DNA from: an uncultured Rhodospirillales bacterium
Lineage (GTDB): Bacteria; Pseudomonadota; Alphaproteobacteria; ATCC43930; CGMCC-115725
Direction: 5' to 3'
Assembly (NCBI GenBank): GCA_903822185.1
Contig: CAIJOA010000048.1
Coordinates: 62,001-126,000, forward strand
DNA length: 64,000 nucleotides
Shown piece after piece: positions 24,726 through 41,208 of the stretch; position 1 is the first letter of the stretch, and every line of letters begins with the position of its first letter. Position numbers and translations under genes: made by a program. Under the pieces are notes generated by a model, which saw only the letters and a program-made list of their open reading frames with translations, did no database searches and had not been told where the DNA came from.

Positions 24726-24743
24726 CAGCTGCTTCCTTATCAT

Positions 24744-24824
24744 CGTCATTCCCGCGAAAGCGGGAATCCATGGCAACCACACGCCGCATTGTTGGATGGA
24801 CCACCGTTTTCGCGGGGGGTGACG
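24744..24824. repeat. palindromic repeat R2, copy 1
   Basis: This element of about 80 bp has an outer arm CATTCCCGCGAAAGCGGGAA and, after a variable spacer, a degenerate second arm ending GGGGGGTGACG. It abuts the ATG of array A gene 2, and its G-run supplies that gene's only plausible ribosome site. Copies also lie at 28828 and 49962. Confidence 0.75.
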
Positions 24825-25766
24825 ATGTTTTTGTTGGGTCTAGTAACGCTCATCTGCATCGCATCACCCGCCCATGCCGCCGACAAGCTGATCGTCGGCA
24901 AGGCGGCGAATGCCTGGACCTTCATTCCGGTGAATGTCGGTGTCGAGGTCAGCACCTTCGCCGCGCAAGGCGTCGAGGTCGAAATCGTCAATCTCGCTAG
25001 CGACGCGAAGTTGCAGCAGGCCCTCGTCGCCGGCAGCGTCGATATCGGCGTCATCGGCGGCCCGACCATGGCGCAATCGGTGCGCGGTTCGCCGGTGCTG
25101 GCGGTCGCCGCCTTCGCGCGCGAGCCGCGCAACATGGCGATCATCACCGTTGCCGATTCGCCGATCCGTCAGGTCGCCGACCTTAAGGGCAAGCTGCTGG
25201 GCGTGCCGGGCACCGCGTCGCTGACCGAATGGATGGCACGGCGGGTCGCGTTGGTCGAAGGCTGGGGCAAGGACGGCGTGCGCACAGTTTCATTGGGCGG
25301 GTTCGACGCCAATCTCGCGGCGCTGAAGACGAAGCAGACGGATGCGATGGTGACTGCCACCGAGATCGGTTACATGCTCGAGGCACGCGGCGAAGGCCGG
25401 ATCGTCACCGTCCTCGGCGCCTATGCACCGCAATTCCACGCCCATGTGATCGTCGCCCGCAATCAGGTCGTGGCCGAACATCCCGACAGCGTCGCGCGTT
25501 TTCTCAAAGGCTATTTCGACGCCATCGCTTTCATGAAAAAGAACAAGGCGAAGACCACGGAAATCGCCATGGGGCTGCTGAAGCTGGACGAAGCGGTGAT
25601 GAACCGCGCCTATGACGAAGAGATCGGCATGCTGCAGGATGACGGGCATTTCGATCGGCAGGCCGTCGATGTCCTCAAGCAATCCTTCGTCGATATGGGA
25701 CTGCTGCCCGACATACCGCGTGACGATCAGATTCTGACGACACGCTACGAACCGATGCGCCCCTAA
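24825..25766 (+). CDS. ABC substrate-binding protein, array A gene 2
   Basis: This SBP has 313 residues from the ATG at 24825. Its signal peptide, MFLLGLVTLICIASPAHA, is short and has no basic residue in the n-region, which is unusual. A start at GTG 24819, or at TTG 24789 inside repeat R2, would add residues including an arginine. The pocket segment is ANAWTFIPVNVG. The usual GSGPSMAF is replaced by GVIGGPTMAQSVRG, and the lobe-2 segment is MVTATEIGYMLEARGEGR. The tail LTTRYEPMRP deviates from PVKP. It is 12 bp from gene 3. Coding sequence is intact; the N-terminus is the uncertain part. Confidence 0.9.
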   Translation: MFLLGLVTLICIASPAHAADKLIVGKAANAWTFIPVNVGVEVSTFAAQGVEVEIVNLASDAKLQQALVAGSVDIGVIGGPTMAQSVRGSPVLAVAAFAREPRNMAIITVADSPIRQVADLKGKLLGVPGTASLTEWMARRVALVEGWGKDGVRTVSLGGFDANLAALKTKQTDAMVTATEIGYMLEARGEGRIVTVLGAYAPQFHAHVIVARNQVVAEHPDSVARFLKGYFDAIAFMKKNKAKTTEIAMGLLKLDEAVMNRAYDEEIGMLQDDGHFDRQAVDVLKQSFVDMGLLPDIPRDDQILTTRYEPMRP

Positions 25767-28782: not shown

Positions 28783-28827
28783 GGAAAGTCCTGCTCGCCC
28801 GCGCCGATCACCGACAGCTTCCCTTCT

Positions 28828-28906
28828 CGTCACCCCCGCGAAAGCGGGGGTCCATGCCAACAACGAACTCGCTGCCTGATGGATTCCCGCTTTCGCGGGA
28901 ATGACG
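28828..28906. repeat. palindromic repeat R2, copy 2
   Basis: The same element as at 24744, in reverse orientation: CACCCCCGCGAAAGCGGGGG at the left and GGATTCCCGCTTTCGCGGGA at the right. A fragment resembling repeat R3 (CACCTCGCCATGCGCGGAG) follows directly, so two repeat types are stacked in this gap. Confidence 0.75.
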
Positions 28907-29012
28907 AATGGAGCGCGACCCTTCCCTCACCTCGCCATGCGCGGAGAGGGTATCAAGTTTGATCGACAGCCACGGCTCCCTTTCGTATGTTGCCCACTTA
29001 GGGAGGAACAAC

Positions 29013-30140: not shown

Positions 30141-31100
30141 GTGCATCCGTTCAAGCATTGGTTCTGTGCAATTGCCCTCACGGCGCTGACTCTCAGCAGC
30201 GCCCAAGCTGCCGACAAACTACGCGTCGGCAAGTCCGTCGGCACGACCTGGACCTTCATCCAACTGGATGTCGGCATGAAGGAAGGCATCTTCGCCGAAT
30301 ACGGCATCGACCTTGAGATGGCCTCGTTCTCAGGTGACGCCAAATTGCAGCAGGCGTTGGCAGCCGAGGCACTCGATGTCGGATTGGGCAGCGGGCCGTC
30401 GATGGCTTTCTCGGTCAAAGGCTCGCCCGTCATCGCCGTCGCGTCGTTCGCCAACGAGCCGCGTAATATCTCGGTCACCGTGCCGATCAATTCGACGGCG
30501 AAATCCGCCCAAGACCTCAAAGGCAAATTGATCGCCGTCAGCAGCAGCGGTTCGTTGACCGATTGGCTAGCCAAGCGTCTTGCGGTTGAAGAAGGCTGGG
30601 GCGCCGATGGCGTGCGCCGTGTCGCGATCGGCGATGCCGTGCAAATGACCGCCGCGCTGAAGTCACAACAGGTCGATGGTTTGATGGGCGCGACCGAAAA
30701 CGGCTATCAGCTCGAAGAGCGCGGCGAAGGCCGGGTGCTGCTAGGCATGGAAAAATACGTGCCGCATTTCGTCACCCACGTGATTTTCGCCAACAAACAG
30801 TTCGTCGCCGAAAAGCCCGATGTCATCAACCGTTTCCTCAAAGGCTTCTTCGCCTCGATGGCCTTCATCCGCGACAACAAAGAAAAGACCGCCGAGATCG
30901 CAGCGCCGGTGCTGCATGAAAGTCCCGCTGTTCTCAACAAGACCTACGATTACCTGATGCCGATGATGGGTTTCGACGGTCAGTTCGATCCGCAAGGACT
31001 CGATCTCATCAAGACCTCGTTCCTCGACATGGGCATCCTCGATCAGAAACCGAGCGACGATCAGATTCTCACGCGTCAGTTTCTGCCGGTGAAGCCATAA
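30141..31100 (+). CDS. ABC substrate-binding protein, array A gene 7
   Basis: The start is GTG at 30141 with a strong GGGAGG 8-9 bases upstream, giving 319 residues. The signal MHPFKHWFCAIALTALT ends SAQA at residue 23. Lobe 1 reads VGTTWTFIQLDVG (Gln where most have Pro) and EMASFSGDAKLQQAL. GLGSGPSMAFSVKG and LMGATENGYQLEERGEGR are near the array norm. The motion region is VPHFVTHVIFAN. TYDYLMPMMGFDGQ replaces TYDYEISML. The tail is LTRQFLPVKP. Only 15 bp separate it from gene 8. Confidence 0.93.
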   Translation: MHPFKHWFCAIALTALTLSSAQAADKLRVGKSVGTTWTFIQLDVGMKEGIFAEYGIDLEMASFSGDAKLQQALAAEALDVGLGSGPSMAFSVKGSPVIAVASFANEPRNISVTVPINSTAKSAQDLKGKLIAVSSSGSLTDWLAKRLAVEEGWGADGVRRVAIGDAVQMTAALKSQQVDGLMGATENGYQLEERGEGRVLLGMEKYVPHFVTHVIFANKQFVAEKPDVINRFLKGFFASMAFIRDNKEKTAEIAAPVLHESPAVLNKTYDYLMPMMGFDGQFDPQGLDLIKTSFLDMGILDQKPSDDQILTRQFLPVKP

Positions 31101-31115
31101 CTAAAGGAATACCGA

Positions 31116-32183
31116 ATGCGTAATTCACCCCCCACCCTGGCCCTCCCCCTCAAGGGGAGAGGGAATGAAACCCGTCATCGTTCATTTTCTCCCTCCCCCC
31201 TTGAGGGGGAGGGTTGGGGTGGGGGGTACCTCGCGAAGCTGTGCCTCAGTCTTTGTCTCGGCACCGCCCTCCTCGCATCGTCGGCCCATGCCGCCGACAA
31301 AGTCCGCGCCGGCAAGGCTGTTGCGACCTCGCTGCCAATGGCGATGCTCGATCTGGGCGTGAACGAAGGCATCTTCGCCAAATACGGCATCGAGCCGGAG
31401 ATCATCGCCTTCACCGGCGATGCGCGATTGCAGCAGGCCTTTGCCGCCGAGAGCGTCGATATCGGATTGGGCAGCGGCCCTGCCATGGCCTTTCAGGTCA
31501 AAGGCGCGCCGTCCCTTGCCGTCGCGGCCTTTGCCGGCCCACCGCGCACCATTTCCGTCGCGGTCATTCCCGATTCACCGATTAAGAAAGCAAGCGATCT
31601 CAAAGGGAAAACGCTGGCCATCAGCACCACCGGATCGCTGACCGAATGGCTGGCACGGCGGCTGGCGGTCAAGGAAGGCTGGGGACCGGAAGGGGTCAAA
31701 ACAATCGCCTTGGGCGCGGGCGCAGCGATGAACGGGCCGCTTTTCACCAAGCAGGTCGATGCGATGATGACCGGGACTGAAAACGCCCTATTGCTGGTCG
31801 AAAAGAAGCAGGTCCGCATCGTCACCGGCATGGAGGACTATGCGCCGGACTTCATCACCCATGTGGTCTTCGCCAGCAACAGCATGATCGAGAAGAAGCC
31901 CGAGATCATCGGCCGGTTCCTGCAAGGCTTCTTCGCCTCGATGCAGTTCGCCAAGGCGAACAAGGCCAAGACCGTCGCCTTCCTGGCCCCGTTGTTCAAC
32001 GAGCCCGCCGATGTGACCGAGCAAATCTACGATCATGAGATGCCCATGATGATCGAAGATGGGCATTTCGACCCGAAGGCCGTGGCGGTGCTGAAAGACT
32101 CGTTCCTCGACATGGGCATTCTCGACAAGAAGCCCGAGGATGCGCAGCTTTTCGACGCGCGTTTCGTACCCGTAAAACCCTAG
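31116..32183 (+). CDS. ABC substrate-binding protein, array A gene 8, with repeat in signal peptide
   Basis: This 355-residue SBP is about 35 residues longer than its neighbours. The extra length is all at the N-terminus. The ATG at 31116 has AAAGGAATACCG before it. After MRN, codons 4-38 are a GC-rich palindromic repeat (SPPTLALPLKGRG ... PLEGEGWGGG), and a normal hydrophobic core LAKLCLSLCLGTALLA and SSAHA follow. No other start lies between. The pocket is also divergent: VATSLPMAMLDLG lacks the usual Trp and Phe, lobe 2 reads MMTGTENALLLVEKKQVR, and YAPDFITHVVFAS replaces FHAHVIFAR. The tail FDARFVPVKP is standard. Whether the long n-region still allows export is open. Confidence 0.88.
   Translation: MRNSPPTLALPLKGRGNETRHRSFSPSPLEGEGWGGGYLAKLCLSLCLGTALLASSAHAADKVRAGKAVATSLPMAMLDLGVNEGIFAKYGIEPEIIAFTGDARLQQAFAAESVDIGLGSGPAMAFQVKGAPSLAVAAFAGPPRTISVAVIPDSPIKKASDLKGKTLAISTTGSLTEWLARRLAVKEGWGPEGVKTIALGAGAAMNGPLFTKQVDAMMTGTENALLLVEKKQVRIVTGMEDYAPDFITHVVFASNSMIEKKPEIIGRFLQGFFASMQFAKANKAKTVAFLAPLFNEPADVTEQIYDHEMPMMIEDGHFDPKAVAVLKDSFLDMGILDKKPEDAQLFDARFVPVKP
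31126..31228. repeat. in-frame palindromic repeat R4 inside a coding sequence
   Basis: This 103 bp inverted repeat has CACCCCCCACCCTGGCCCTC at the left and GGAGGGTTGGGGTGGGGGGT at the right, with inner arms CCCCCTCAAGGGGAG and CCCCCCTTGAGGGGGAG. It lies wholly inside the signal-peptide part of array A gene 8 and keeps the reading frame. No other copy is seen in the window. Confidence 0.8.
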
Positions 32184-39163: not shown

Positions 39164-39241
39164 CGTCATTGCGAGCGAAGCGAAGCAATCCAGTCGATCA
39201 GCGCACTGGATTGCTTCGTCGCTACGCTCCTCGCAATGACG
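39164..39241. repeat. palindromic repeat R1, copy 3, carrying the start of gene 16
   Basis: A 78 bp R1 copy with CGTCATTGCGAGCGAAGCGA at the left and GCTACGCTCCTCGCAATGAC at the right. Its terminal ATGACG contains the start codon of array A gene 16 at 39236. It is a direct repeat of the copy at 40213, 1049 bp away. Confidence 0.88.
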
Positions 39242-40207
39242 ACGAAAGGAATATCGTTTCTTCTCTCCACGCTGCTCCTCGCAGCAGCCACGTTCGTTTC
39301 TCCCGCCATCGCCGCCGACAAAATCCACGCCGGCAAGACCATCGGCGTGTTGTGGGTGCTGACTCCGATTGATGTCGGCGTCGCCGAAGGCTTCTTCGCT
39401 AAGCGCGGACTCGACGTAGAAATTACGACGCTCGCGGGCGATTCGCGGCTGATGCAGGGCTTCGTCTCGGGCGATTTCGACATCGGCCTTTCCGGTTCGA
39501 CCGGCATGATCTTCGCCGCCAAGGGTGCGCCCATCCGGGGCATTGCCGCACTGGACGGCGAGCCACGCGATTTTTCCCTGCTGGTTGCGCCCAACTCGTC
39601 CATCACCTCGGTCAAAGACCTCAAAGGCAAATCGCTGGGCACCGCCGTAACGGCCTCGTTCCCCGAATGGCTGGGCAAACGCGTATCGGTCGGCGAAGGC
39701 TGGGGACCGGACGGGATCAAGACCACCGTCACTGGTGGCTTTGAAGCCACCATCGCGGCGATGCGGACGGGTCAGTTGGAAGGCTTCATCGGCGCGACCG
39801 AACTCGGCTATCAACTTGCCGAGAAACAGCAGATCCGGATCATCGTCGGCATGGAGCAATTCGTGCCGCGCTTTCACACTCATGTCGTGCTGGGCCGCGA
39901 AGCTTTCGTGCGCGACCATCCCGATGTCGCGACACGTTTCCTGCAAGGTCTTTTCGAAGCCATCGCCTTCATGAAGGCCAACCGCGACAAGACGATCGAG
40001 CTGACCGCGCCGATCATGCATATGAGCACGGCGGTGATCGCCAAGACCTACGATTACGAGATCGCGATGCTGTCCGACGACGGCGTATTCGATCCGGCTT
40101 CGCTGAAAGTTCTCAAAGATTCTTATGTCGAGATGGGGCTTCTGCCGGAAGCACCGACGGACGATCAGCTTTTGACCCGGCAATTTGTGCCGGTGAAATT
40201 CCGATGA
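39236..40207 (+). CDS. ABC substrate-binding protein, array A gene 16
   Basis: This 323-residue SBP uses an ATG that is the end of repeat R1. No ribosome site precedes it; an AAAGGAATATCG that looks like the array's usual ribosome site lies inside the coding sequence instead. The signal MTTKGISFLLSTLLLAAA ends SPAIA at residue 26. Lobe 1 reads IGVLWVLTPIDVGVAEG, with KRGLDVEITTLAGDSRLMQGF. The pocket loop is GLSGSTGMIFAAKG and lobe 2 is FIGATELGYQLAEKQQIR. Its closest relative is gene 17. The tail LTRQFVPVKFR has an extra arginine. Its TGA overlaps the ATG of gene 17. Confidence 0.9.
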   Translation: MTTKGISFLLSTLLLAAATFVSPAIAADKIHAGKTIGVLWVLTPIDVGVAEGFFAKRGLDVEITTLAGDSRLMQGFVSGDFDIGLSGSTGMIFAAKGAPIRGIAALDGEPRDFSLLVAPNSSITSVKDLKGKSLGTAVTASFPEWLGKRVSVGEGWGPDGIKTTVTGGFEATIAAMRTGQLEGFIGATELGYQLAEKQQIRIIVGMEQFVPRFHTHVVLGREAFVRDHPDVATRFLQGLFEAIAFMKANRDKTIELTAPIMHMSTAVIAKTYDYEIAMLSDDGVFDPASLKVLKDSYVEMGLLPEAPTDDQLLTRQFVPVKFR

Positions 40208-41208
40208 CATTACGTCATTGCGAGCGCAGCGAAGCAATCCAGTGGTCCCGCGCACTGGATTGCTTCGTCGCTACGCTCCTCGCAATGACGGTACTTTTAG
40301 GCACACCCGCGCATGCCCTCGACAAAGTCCGCGCCGGCAAGACCATCGGCGTTCTCTGGGCGCTGACGCCGGTCGATGTCGGCGTCGAGGAAGGCATCTT
40401 CGCTGAATACGGCATCGAAGTCGAAATCACGACCCTCAACGGCGATACCAAGCTGCAACAGGCTTTGATTTCCGACAGCGTCGATGTCGGTTTGGCCGGC
40501 GGCACCGGGATGGTCTTTGCCGTAAAGGGTTCTCCCGTCGTCGGCATCGCCGCGCTCGCCGATGCGCCGCGCAATTTTTCGATCATTGTCGGCCCATCCT
40601 CGACCATCCGTTCAGCCAAGGATATGCACAACAAGTTGCTGGGCGTCTCGACGGTCGGCTCGCTGGTTGAATGGTTCGCGAAACATATCTCGACCCGGGA
40701 GGGCTGGGGCACGGACGGCATTCGAACCGTGGCCACCGGTGGTTTCGAAGGCACCATCGCCGCGCTGAAAACCGGCCAGATCGACGGCTTTACCGGCGCG
40801 ACCGAACTCGGCTATCAGCTCGAAGAAAAGCGCGAAGGCAAGATCATCGCCGGCATGGAGAAATTCGTGCCGCGTTTCCACACGCAAGTAATTCTCGCGC
40901 AGCAAAAGACGGTGCGCGAACAGCCTGCCGTCGTCGAGCGCTTCCTCAAGGGGCTTTTCGCTTCGGTCGCCTTCATGAAGAAGAACCGCGACAAGACGAT
41001 CGAGATCACATCGCGGGTCATCCATATGAGTCCAGCGGTTATTACCAAGACCTATGATTACGAAATCGCGATGTTGTCGGATGATGGTGCGTTCGATGCA
41101 GAAGCGCTGACCGTGTTGAAAGATTCTTATCGCGACATGGGTTTGTTGCCTGATGCGCCAACCGACGCACAGATTTTGACGCGGCAGTTCGTGCCGGTGA
41201 AGTTCTAA
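40204..41208 (+). CDS. ABC substrate-binding protein, array A gene 17, repeat-derived signal peptide
   Basis: The ATG at 40204 overlaps the gene 16 stop (ATGA). Codons 4-29 are an exact in-frame 78 bp copy of repeat R1, reading RHCERSEAIQ then LDCFVATLLAMT. With the native VLLGTPAHA this makes a 38-residue signal whose hydrophobic core is largely repeat-encoded. The only other start, the ATG inside the repeat at 40285, would leave just 11 residues before the cleavage site. The 334-residue protein then continues LDKVRAGKTIGVLWALTPVDVG, GLAGGTGMVFAVKG and FTGATELGYQLEEKREGK, close to gene 16. The tail is LTRQFVPVKF. It is the last gene of array A. Confidence 0.9.
   Translation: MTLRHCERSEAIQWSRALDCFVATLLAMTVLLGTPAHALDKVRAGKTIGVLWALTPVDVGVEEGIFAEYGIEVEITTLNGDTKLQQALISDSVDVGLAGGTGMVFAVKGSPVVGIAALADAPRNFSIIVGPSSTIRSAKDMHNKLLGVSTVGSLVEWFAKHISTREGWGTDGIRTVATGGFEGTIAALKTGQIDGFTGATELGYQLEEKREGKIIAGMEKFVPRFHTQVILAQQKTVREQPAVVERFLKGLFASVAFMKKNRDKTIEITSRVIHMSPAVITKTYDYEIAMLSDDGAFDAEALTVLKDSYRDMGLLPDAPTDAQILTRQFVPVKF
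40213..40290. repeat. palindromic repeat R1, copy 4, in frame inside gene 17
   Basis: A full 78 bp (26-codon) R1 copy with CGTCATTGCGAGCGCAGCGA at the left and GCTACGCTCCTCGCAATGAC at the right. It lies inside the signal-peptide coding region of gene 17 and keeps the frame open. Confidence 0.88.

Follow-up and report, generated by a model that had tools for sequence, protein, structure and literature searches.

The gene 8 locus and its palindromic element

The window, the whole stretch of 64,000 nucleotides that was analysed, contains a tandem array of 16 genes for NMT1-like substrate-binding proteins between 24.8 and 41.2 kb. Gene 8 of this array (31116–32183, forward strand) encodes a periplasmic protein of 355 residues, matches Pfam family PF09084 with an E value of 4.2e-22, and carries a palindromic element in frame near its start. 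Gene 7, directly upstream on the same strand (30141–31100), also encodes an NMT1-like substrate-binding protein, with a reciprocal best hit (78%) in G001, a genome from the same genus. Its TAA stop codon (31098–31100) is located 26 nt ahead of the element.

One long inverted repeat was found in this region by inverted-repeat search. A C-rich unit (left arm, 31127–31164, forward strand) and a G-rich unit (right arm, 31190–31227) flank a loop of 25 nt. The arms are 38 nt each and 89% complementary, and together they form a near-perfect palindrome of 101 nt (31127–31227). We describe it as a REP-like palindromic dimer of type A, in which two inverted units have the outer sequence CCCCCCACC and the inner palindromes CCCTCCCCCTCAAGGGG. 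The first-pass annotation had placed here an inverted repeat of 103 bp that is unrelated to another repeat of the array, R1; the repeat is present and its sequence is indeed unrelated to R1, but its size is 101 nt. As RNA, the element alone is predicted to form a hairpin of −87.5 kcal/mol (z = −9.0), and an equally good fold was obtained in none of 200 shuffles. A scan of the window against Rfam gave no matches.

The start of gene 8 reads ATG CGT AAT TC, with the repeat beginning in codon 4, 11 nt from the first base of the ATG. A Shine-Dalgarno-like AAAGGA (31103–31108, forward strand) is positioned 7 nt before this ATG, with a pairing energy of −5.6 kcal/mol. The reading frame has no stop inside the element and is open from 31116 to 32183. 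The element encodes a stretch of 34 residues that is rich in Pro, Gly, Arg and Glu, after which the frame continues as LAKLCLSLCLGTALLASSAHA-ADK. The hydrophobic core of the signal peptide, LCLSLCLGTALL, is kept on the 3′ side of the element (31239–31274), followed by the mature protein (ADK...) with the substrate-binding domain (31293–32183). These features bear out the earlier description of an element between codon 3 and the core that adds about 35 residues (about 34 by our count) and leaves the frame, ribosome site, ATG and core intact.

For a Sec signal, the predicted n-region is unusual, as it would be about 41 residues long and include three acidic ones. In gene 8, 59 residues precede the AADK-type motif, as compared to 38 in the gene at 40204 and 18–28 in the 14 other array genes that were scored. 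A tryptic peptide, SFSPSPLEGEGWGGGYLAK, is predicted within residues 2–41.

From the end of the element to the mature domain there is no in-frame ATG, GTG or TTG, and the element is probably translated for this reason. The sole in-frame near-start codon left on the 3′ side is CTG 31239, the first codon of the core.

The only same-genus genome compared, G001, is that of a sister species, and the orthologous array is present in it. Between the two genomes gene order is conserved, and reciprocal best hits link genes c, d and e as well as genes 7 and 8. The comparison with orthologs proposed in the first-pass annotation can thus be made with a syntenic gene, which is 68% identical to gene 8, lacks the element and begins with an ordinary 22-residue signal peptide (MIRIDALAAFAVALALATPSYA-ADK). 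By this comparison the element in gene 8 is an insertion, since the syntenic reciprocal-best ortholog has a short signal peptide without it. With respect to a MITE, the inverted ends are seen; the two signal peptides are too diverged for the empty site to be aligned or a target-site duplication to be read, and inspection by eye did not establish one. For the mature part, dN is 0.22 and dS 0.96 (dN/dS about 0.23), which indicates purifying selection relative to G001; this ratio does not date the insertion, as it mostly reflects the time before it, and gene 8 could be decaying now. The protein class has undergone a very large expansion, with at least 150 NMT1_2-type matches in the 4.3 Mb genome that contains the window (referred to here as the own genome) and at least 55 relatives of gene 8 in G001. 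A protein search for gene 8 relatives in the genome_contigs set returned none.

Repeat families and their placement after stop codons

Copies elsewhere show that the element is not a one-off: it consists of a REP-like palindromic unit in dimeric form and belongs to the untagged type A family. The unit, (T)ACCCCCCACCC(C/T)AACCCTCCCCCTCAAGGGGGGAGGG, is itself palindromic, and the elements are two inverted copies of it, either converging with a spacer of 15–25 nt or diverging with one of about 70–80 nt. In a census of best matches rather than of all copies, type A accounts for 7 elements in the own genome and the related type B for about 13; G001 has more, and among its top loci about 20 distinct elements are of type A. 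Matches to the family are found in 30 of the 39 genomes searched from the same taxonomic family. At least 119 stretches, in many Alphaproteobacteria and several Gemmataceae MAGs, contain an exact match to the 35-base arm pattern; the few matches in other phyla could be contamination. A literature search by type A repeat strings gave, among the papers listed, only short, unrelated primer matches.

The family fits the general definition of a REP (PMC12306157). The element is palindromic and forms a stem-loop, its units or arms (about 36–38 nt each, 101 nt for the dimer) are within the range of 14–40 nt, and similar copies with a common motif are present several times per genome. The family is also mostly extragenic and near the 3′ ends of genes, the gene 8 copy being an intragenic exception. 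In the copies inspected, however, the units end with ACCCCCCACC / GGTGGGGGGT and have no terminal GTAG or CGTC tag, which places type A outside the GTAG/CGTC REP superfamilies (PMC3733652). A RAYT was considered as the mobiliser (a REPtron) and rejected: Y1_Tnp is absent from the own genome in a search with a positive control, and no type A arm is found in the inspected flanks of the two Y1_Tnp genes of G001.

R1 starts with CGTC and ends with GACG, and fits the CGTC-REP kind (PMC3733652). It occurs at about 40 places in the own genome and has no match in G001, so that the abundances of R1 and type A differ between close relatives. For the placement of both families, gene calls around the repeats were made with a home-made codon-bias caller, in which stops are exact and starts approximate. 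A facing stop codon is located within 50 nt in 28 of 30 R1 copies (median distance 11.5 nt). Sixteen of the 30 are between convergent genes, often with 6–13 nt on each side, and none is in a divergent gap, although roughly half of the intergenic bases free of elements at the same loci are in such gaps. At loci L072–L076, L080, L081, L083–L085, L088, L090, L091 and L093, most R1 copies are flanked by convergent gene pairs, at about 6–13 nt from both stops. The copies between convergent genes look as if they were bidirectional terminators.

Type A elements are positioned in the same manner, 8–26 nt from the preceding stop in 6 of the 7 own-genome copies and within 50 nt of a stop codon in 17 of 20 in G001. 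Within the substrate-binding-protein array, all six elements measured begin 5–44 nt past a stop. A third palindrome family (CGTCA..CCCGCGAAAGCGGG) is also seen in the array, at 24740–24830 and 28827–28907; in one of these places it immediately precedes the start of the first gene.

R1 touches the coding sequence of two other genes of the array. The signal peptide of the paralog at 40204–41208 (forward strand) includes an in-frame R1 copy (40213–40290), a CGTC-tagged REP dimer that begins 9 nt from the first base of the start codon. This copy encodes the greater part of the hydrophobic core (LDCFVATLLAMTV) as well as n-region residues. The first-pass annotation had noted two unrelated palindromic families in frame in signal-peptide regions, at the same place in two paralogs. 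Two families are indeed present, type A in gene 8 and R1 at 40204, and both copies are in frame near the start; the place is the same only in a loose sense, as R1 supplies most of the core rather than the n-region alone. The core residues from R1 are ALDCFVATLLAMTVLLGTPAHA, and without them MTLVLLGTPAHA-LDK would remain, which is probably too short for export. Initiation at an ATG on the 3′ side of R1 would likewise give too short a signal. In the paralog at 39236–40207 (MTTKGISFLLSTLLL...), the only plausible start codon is within the tail of an R1 copy (39164–39246), and no Shine-Dalgarno pairing is found upstream of it. The 40204 and 39236 genes are more striking than gene 8 in this respect.

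Copies in frame are also found in other proteins. A type B unit is in frame in the own-genome dihydrolipoamide acyltransferase (L026, C11:11590), in the linker that joins the lipoyl domain to the E3-binding domain, and the flexible linker of the G001 acyltransferase is without this peptide. A Gemmataceae ValRS (L125, 3363–3468) has a type A REP-like dimer in frame, which corresponds to an insert of 46 residues when the protein is aligned to 1gax. Further in-frame type A elements are located in GpsA-, Fpg- and CobQ-like proteins. For an aminotransferase-like Gemmataceae protein, the Pfam query is approximate at the N-terminus and serves domain naming only.

Probable arrival, translation and export of the gene 8 insert

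The reading that we consider likely is that a REP-like dimer, arriving in its customary place after a stop, came to be inside gene 8, kept the frame, and is translated from ATG 31116, with export by the retained core. A type A dimer would have entered the usual post-stop spot, and the 15-nt gap between genes 7 and 8 would have placed the copy in codon 4. It would have survived because its net length preserves the frame and the reading frame through it has no stop. The ribosome would initiate at ATG 31116 and read the hairpin as 34 residues, extending the n-region to about 41 residues with a net charge of +3. The unchanged core would then drive export, with cleavage at AHA|ADK as in the paralogs. 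From what is known of REPs, including those of E. coli (PMC12306157, PMC5082802 and studies cited in them), the stable hairpin beside the gene 7 stop probably shields the gene 7 mRNA from 3′ exonucleases, and it probably lowers the translation of gene 8.

There is some chance, though a limited one, that gene 8 is under inactivation, with the element obstructing its translation or export and the open frame being merely recent. The region around the gene 8 start has a predicted fold of −102 kcal/mol, and an in-frame, open outcome has a probability of about 2/9 by simple counting (1/3 of length classes times 2/3 of phases that are open). Against inactivation, the mature reading frame is intact and its dN/dS relative to the sister species is low, although this value does not date the insertion.

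A second alternative concerns the start codon. If gene 8 started at CTG 31239, with the G-rich arm as its ribosome-binding site, the element would effectively be extragenic. The G-run before this CTG pairs with the 16S tail at −10.7 kcal/mol, as compared to −5.6 for the site at ATG 31116. Many N-terminal REPs are, according to a caution in PMC3733652, extragenic, with the true translation start further downstream; gene 8 is unlike many of the cases in that paper in having no ordinary in-frame start codon past the element. However, the G-rich arm is locked in the −87.5 kcal/mol hairpin, and the product of a CTG start, MCLSLCLGTALLASSAHA, would have no positive charge in its n-region, unlike nearly all paralogs. 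CTG start codons are also rare. ATG 31116, in comparison, stands 15 nt past the gene 7 stop, the usual position in an operon. Initiation at CTG 31239 is improbable on these grounds. Initiation at ATG 31116 is the most probable reading, given the AAAGGA upstream and a lone alternative that is inside the hairpin and would produce an uncharged signal peptide.

The suggestion in the first-pass annotation that signal-peptide n-regions are themselves a landing site for palindromic elements is not upheld, and we regard a preference of this kind as improbable. In its favor, few copies in the own genome touch coding sequence, and three of these are located in the signal-peptide regions of array members (gene 8, 40204 and 39236). 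But the remaining copies are mostly found between genes, close to stops, and other in-frame copies of the family are in cytosolic enzymes. Moreover, the two in-frame copies follow the ordinary post-stop rule. The gene 8 element begins 26 nt past the gene 7 TAA and the R1 copy of 40204 begins 5 nt past the upstream stop, both within the general distributions, and signal peptides are not accepted as a landing site per se for this reason. The two copies are intragenic because the intercistronic gaps are only 15 nt ahead of gene 8 and −4 nt ahead of 40204. A seeming preference for signal peptides can therefore arise from the placement rule together with short operon gaps. The simpler reading would be that tolerance of the n-region accounts for the survival of these copies and not for their arrival.

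Finally, an assembly artefact that joined two loci at the repeat is very unlikely and was rejected on synteny: the assembly is in 50 contigs and the element is repeated, but a 101-nt repeat is short and the flanking genes have reciprocal best hits in G001 with their order unchanged, so that the junction between genes 7 and 8 is very likely real.

Gene 8 allows the translation of N-terminal REPs to be tested more cleanly than most cases do, because no ordinary start codon is present on the 3′ side of the element. An exported gene 8 protein would have been made either from a precursor with the REP peptide or from a CTG start. The array as a whole offers paralogs that carry hairpins and others that do not, and is suited to measuring the effects of REPs on neighboring genes. 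More speculatively, REP dimers may be recurrent raw material for the export signals of the array (the n-region of gene 8, the core of 40204 and the start codon of 39236), with the post-stop hairpins setting relative expression in the operon.

Comparison with known repeat systems

The REPs described by Di Nocera et al. in 2013 (PMC3733652) are, like type A, short palindromic units in head-to-head or tail-to-tail dimers, and they are mostly found, as here, between unidirectional or convergent ORFs near 3′ ends. Some of them are inside ORFs, including those of tRNA synthetases, and add 20–30 residues. Type A differs in lacking both of the tags, GTAG and CGTC, that define those superfamilies; R1 does have CGTC.

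The palindromic elements of Rickettsia (RPEs; reviewed in PMC10969869) likewise occur as in-frame insertions in genes for unrelated proteins and lengthen the product, a case that predates the 2013 report of intragenic REPs. Proteins with N-terminal RPE-1 inserts that are expressed in vivo are cited in PMC3733652. RPEs are about 150 bp long, and the likeness to type A considered here is one of behavior only. In contrast to RPEs, a small minority of the copies described here are intragenic.

E. coli REPs are also stable hairpins just past stop codons; those within 15 nt of the stop stall ribosomes, and they also slow 3′ mRNA decay (PMC12306157 and studies cited in it). The gene 8 element differs in being 26 nt from the stop and in that its hairpin also codes for part of the next gene. 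Br-REP1/2 of Bradyrhizobium (PMC5082802) are alphaproteobacterial palindromes in 3′-UTRs as well, including those of convergent genes, and their published consensus sequences differ from type A when compared by eye. The gene 8 element is thus a clear case of a known phenomenon, the intragenic REP (PMC3733652), and is ordinary in kind rather than new.
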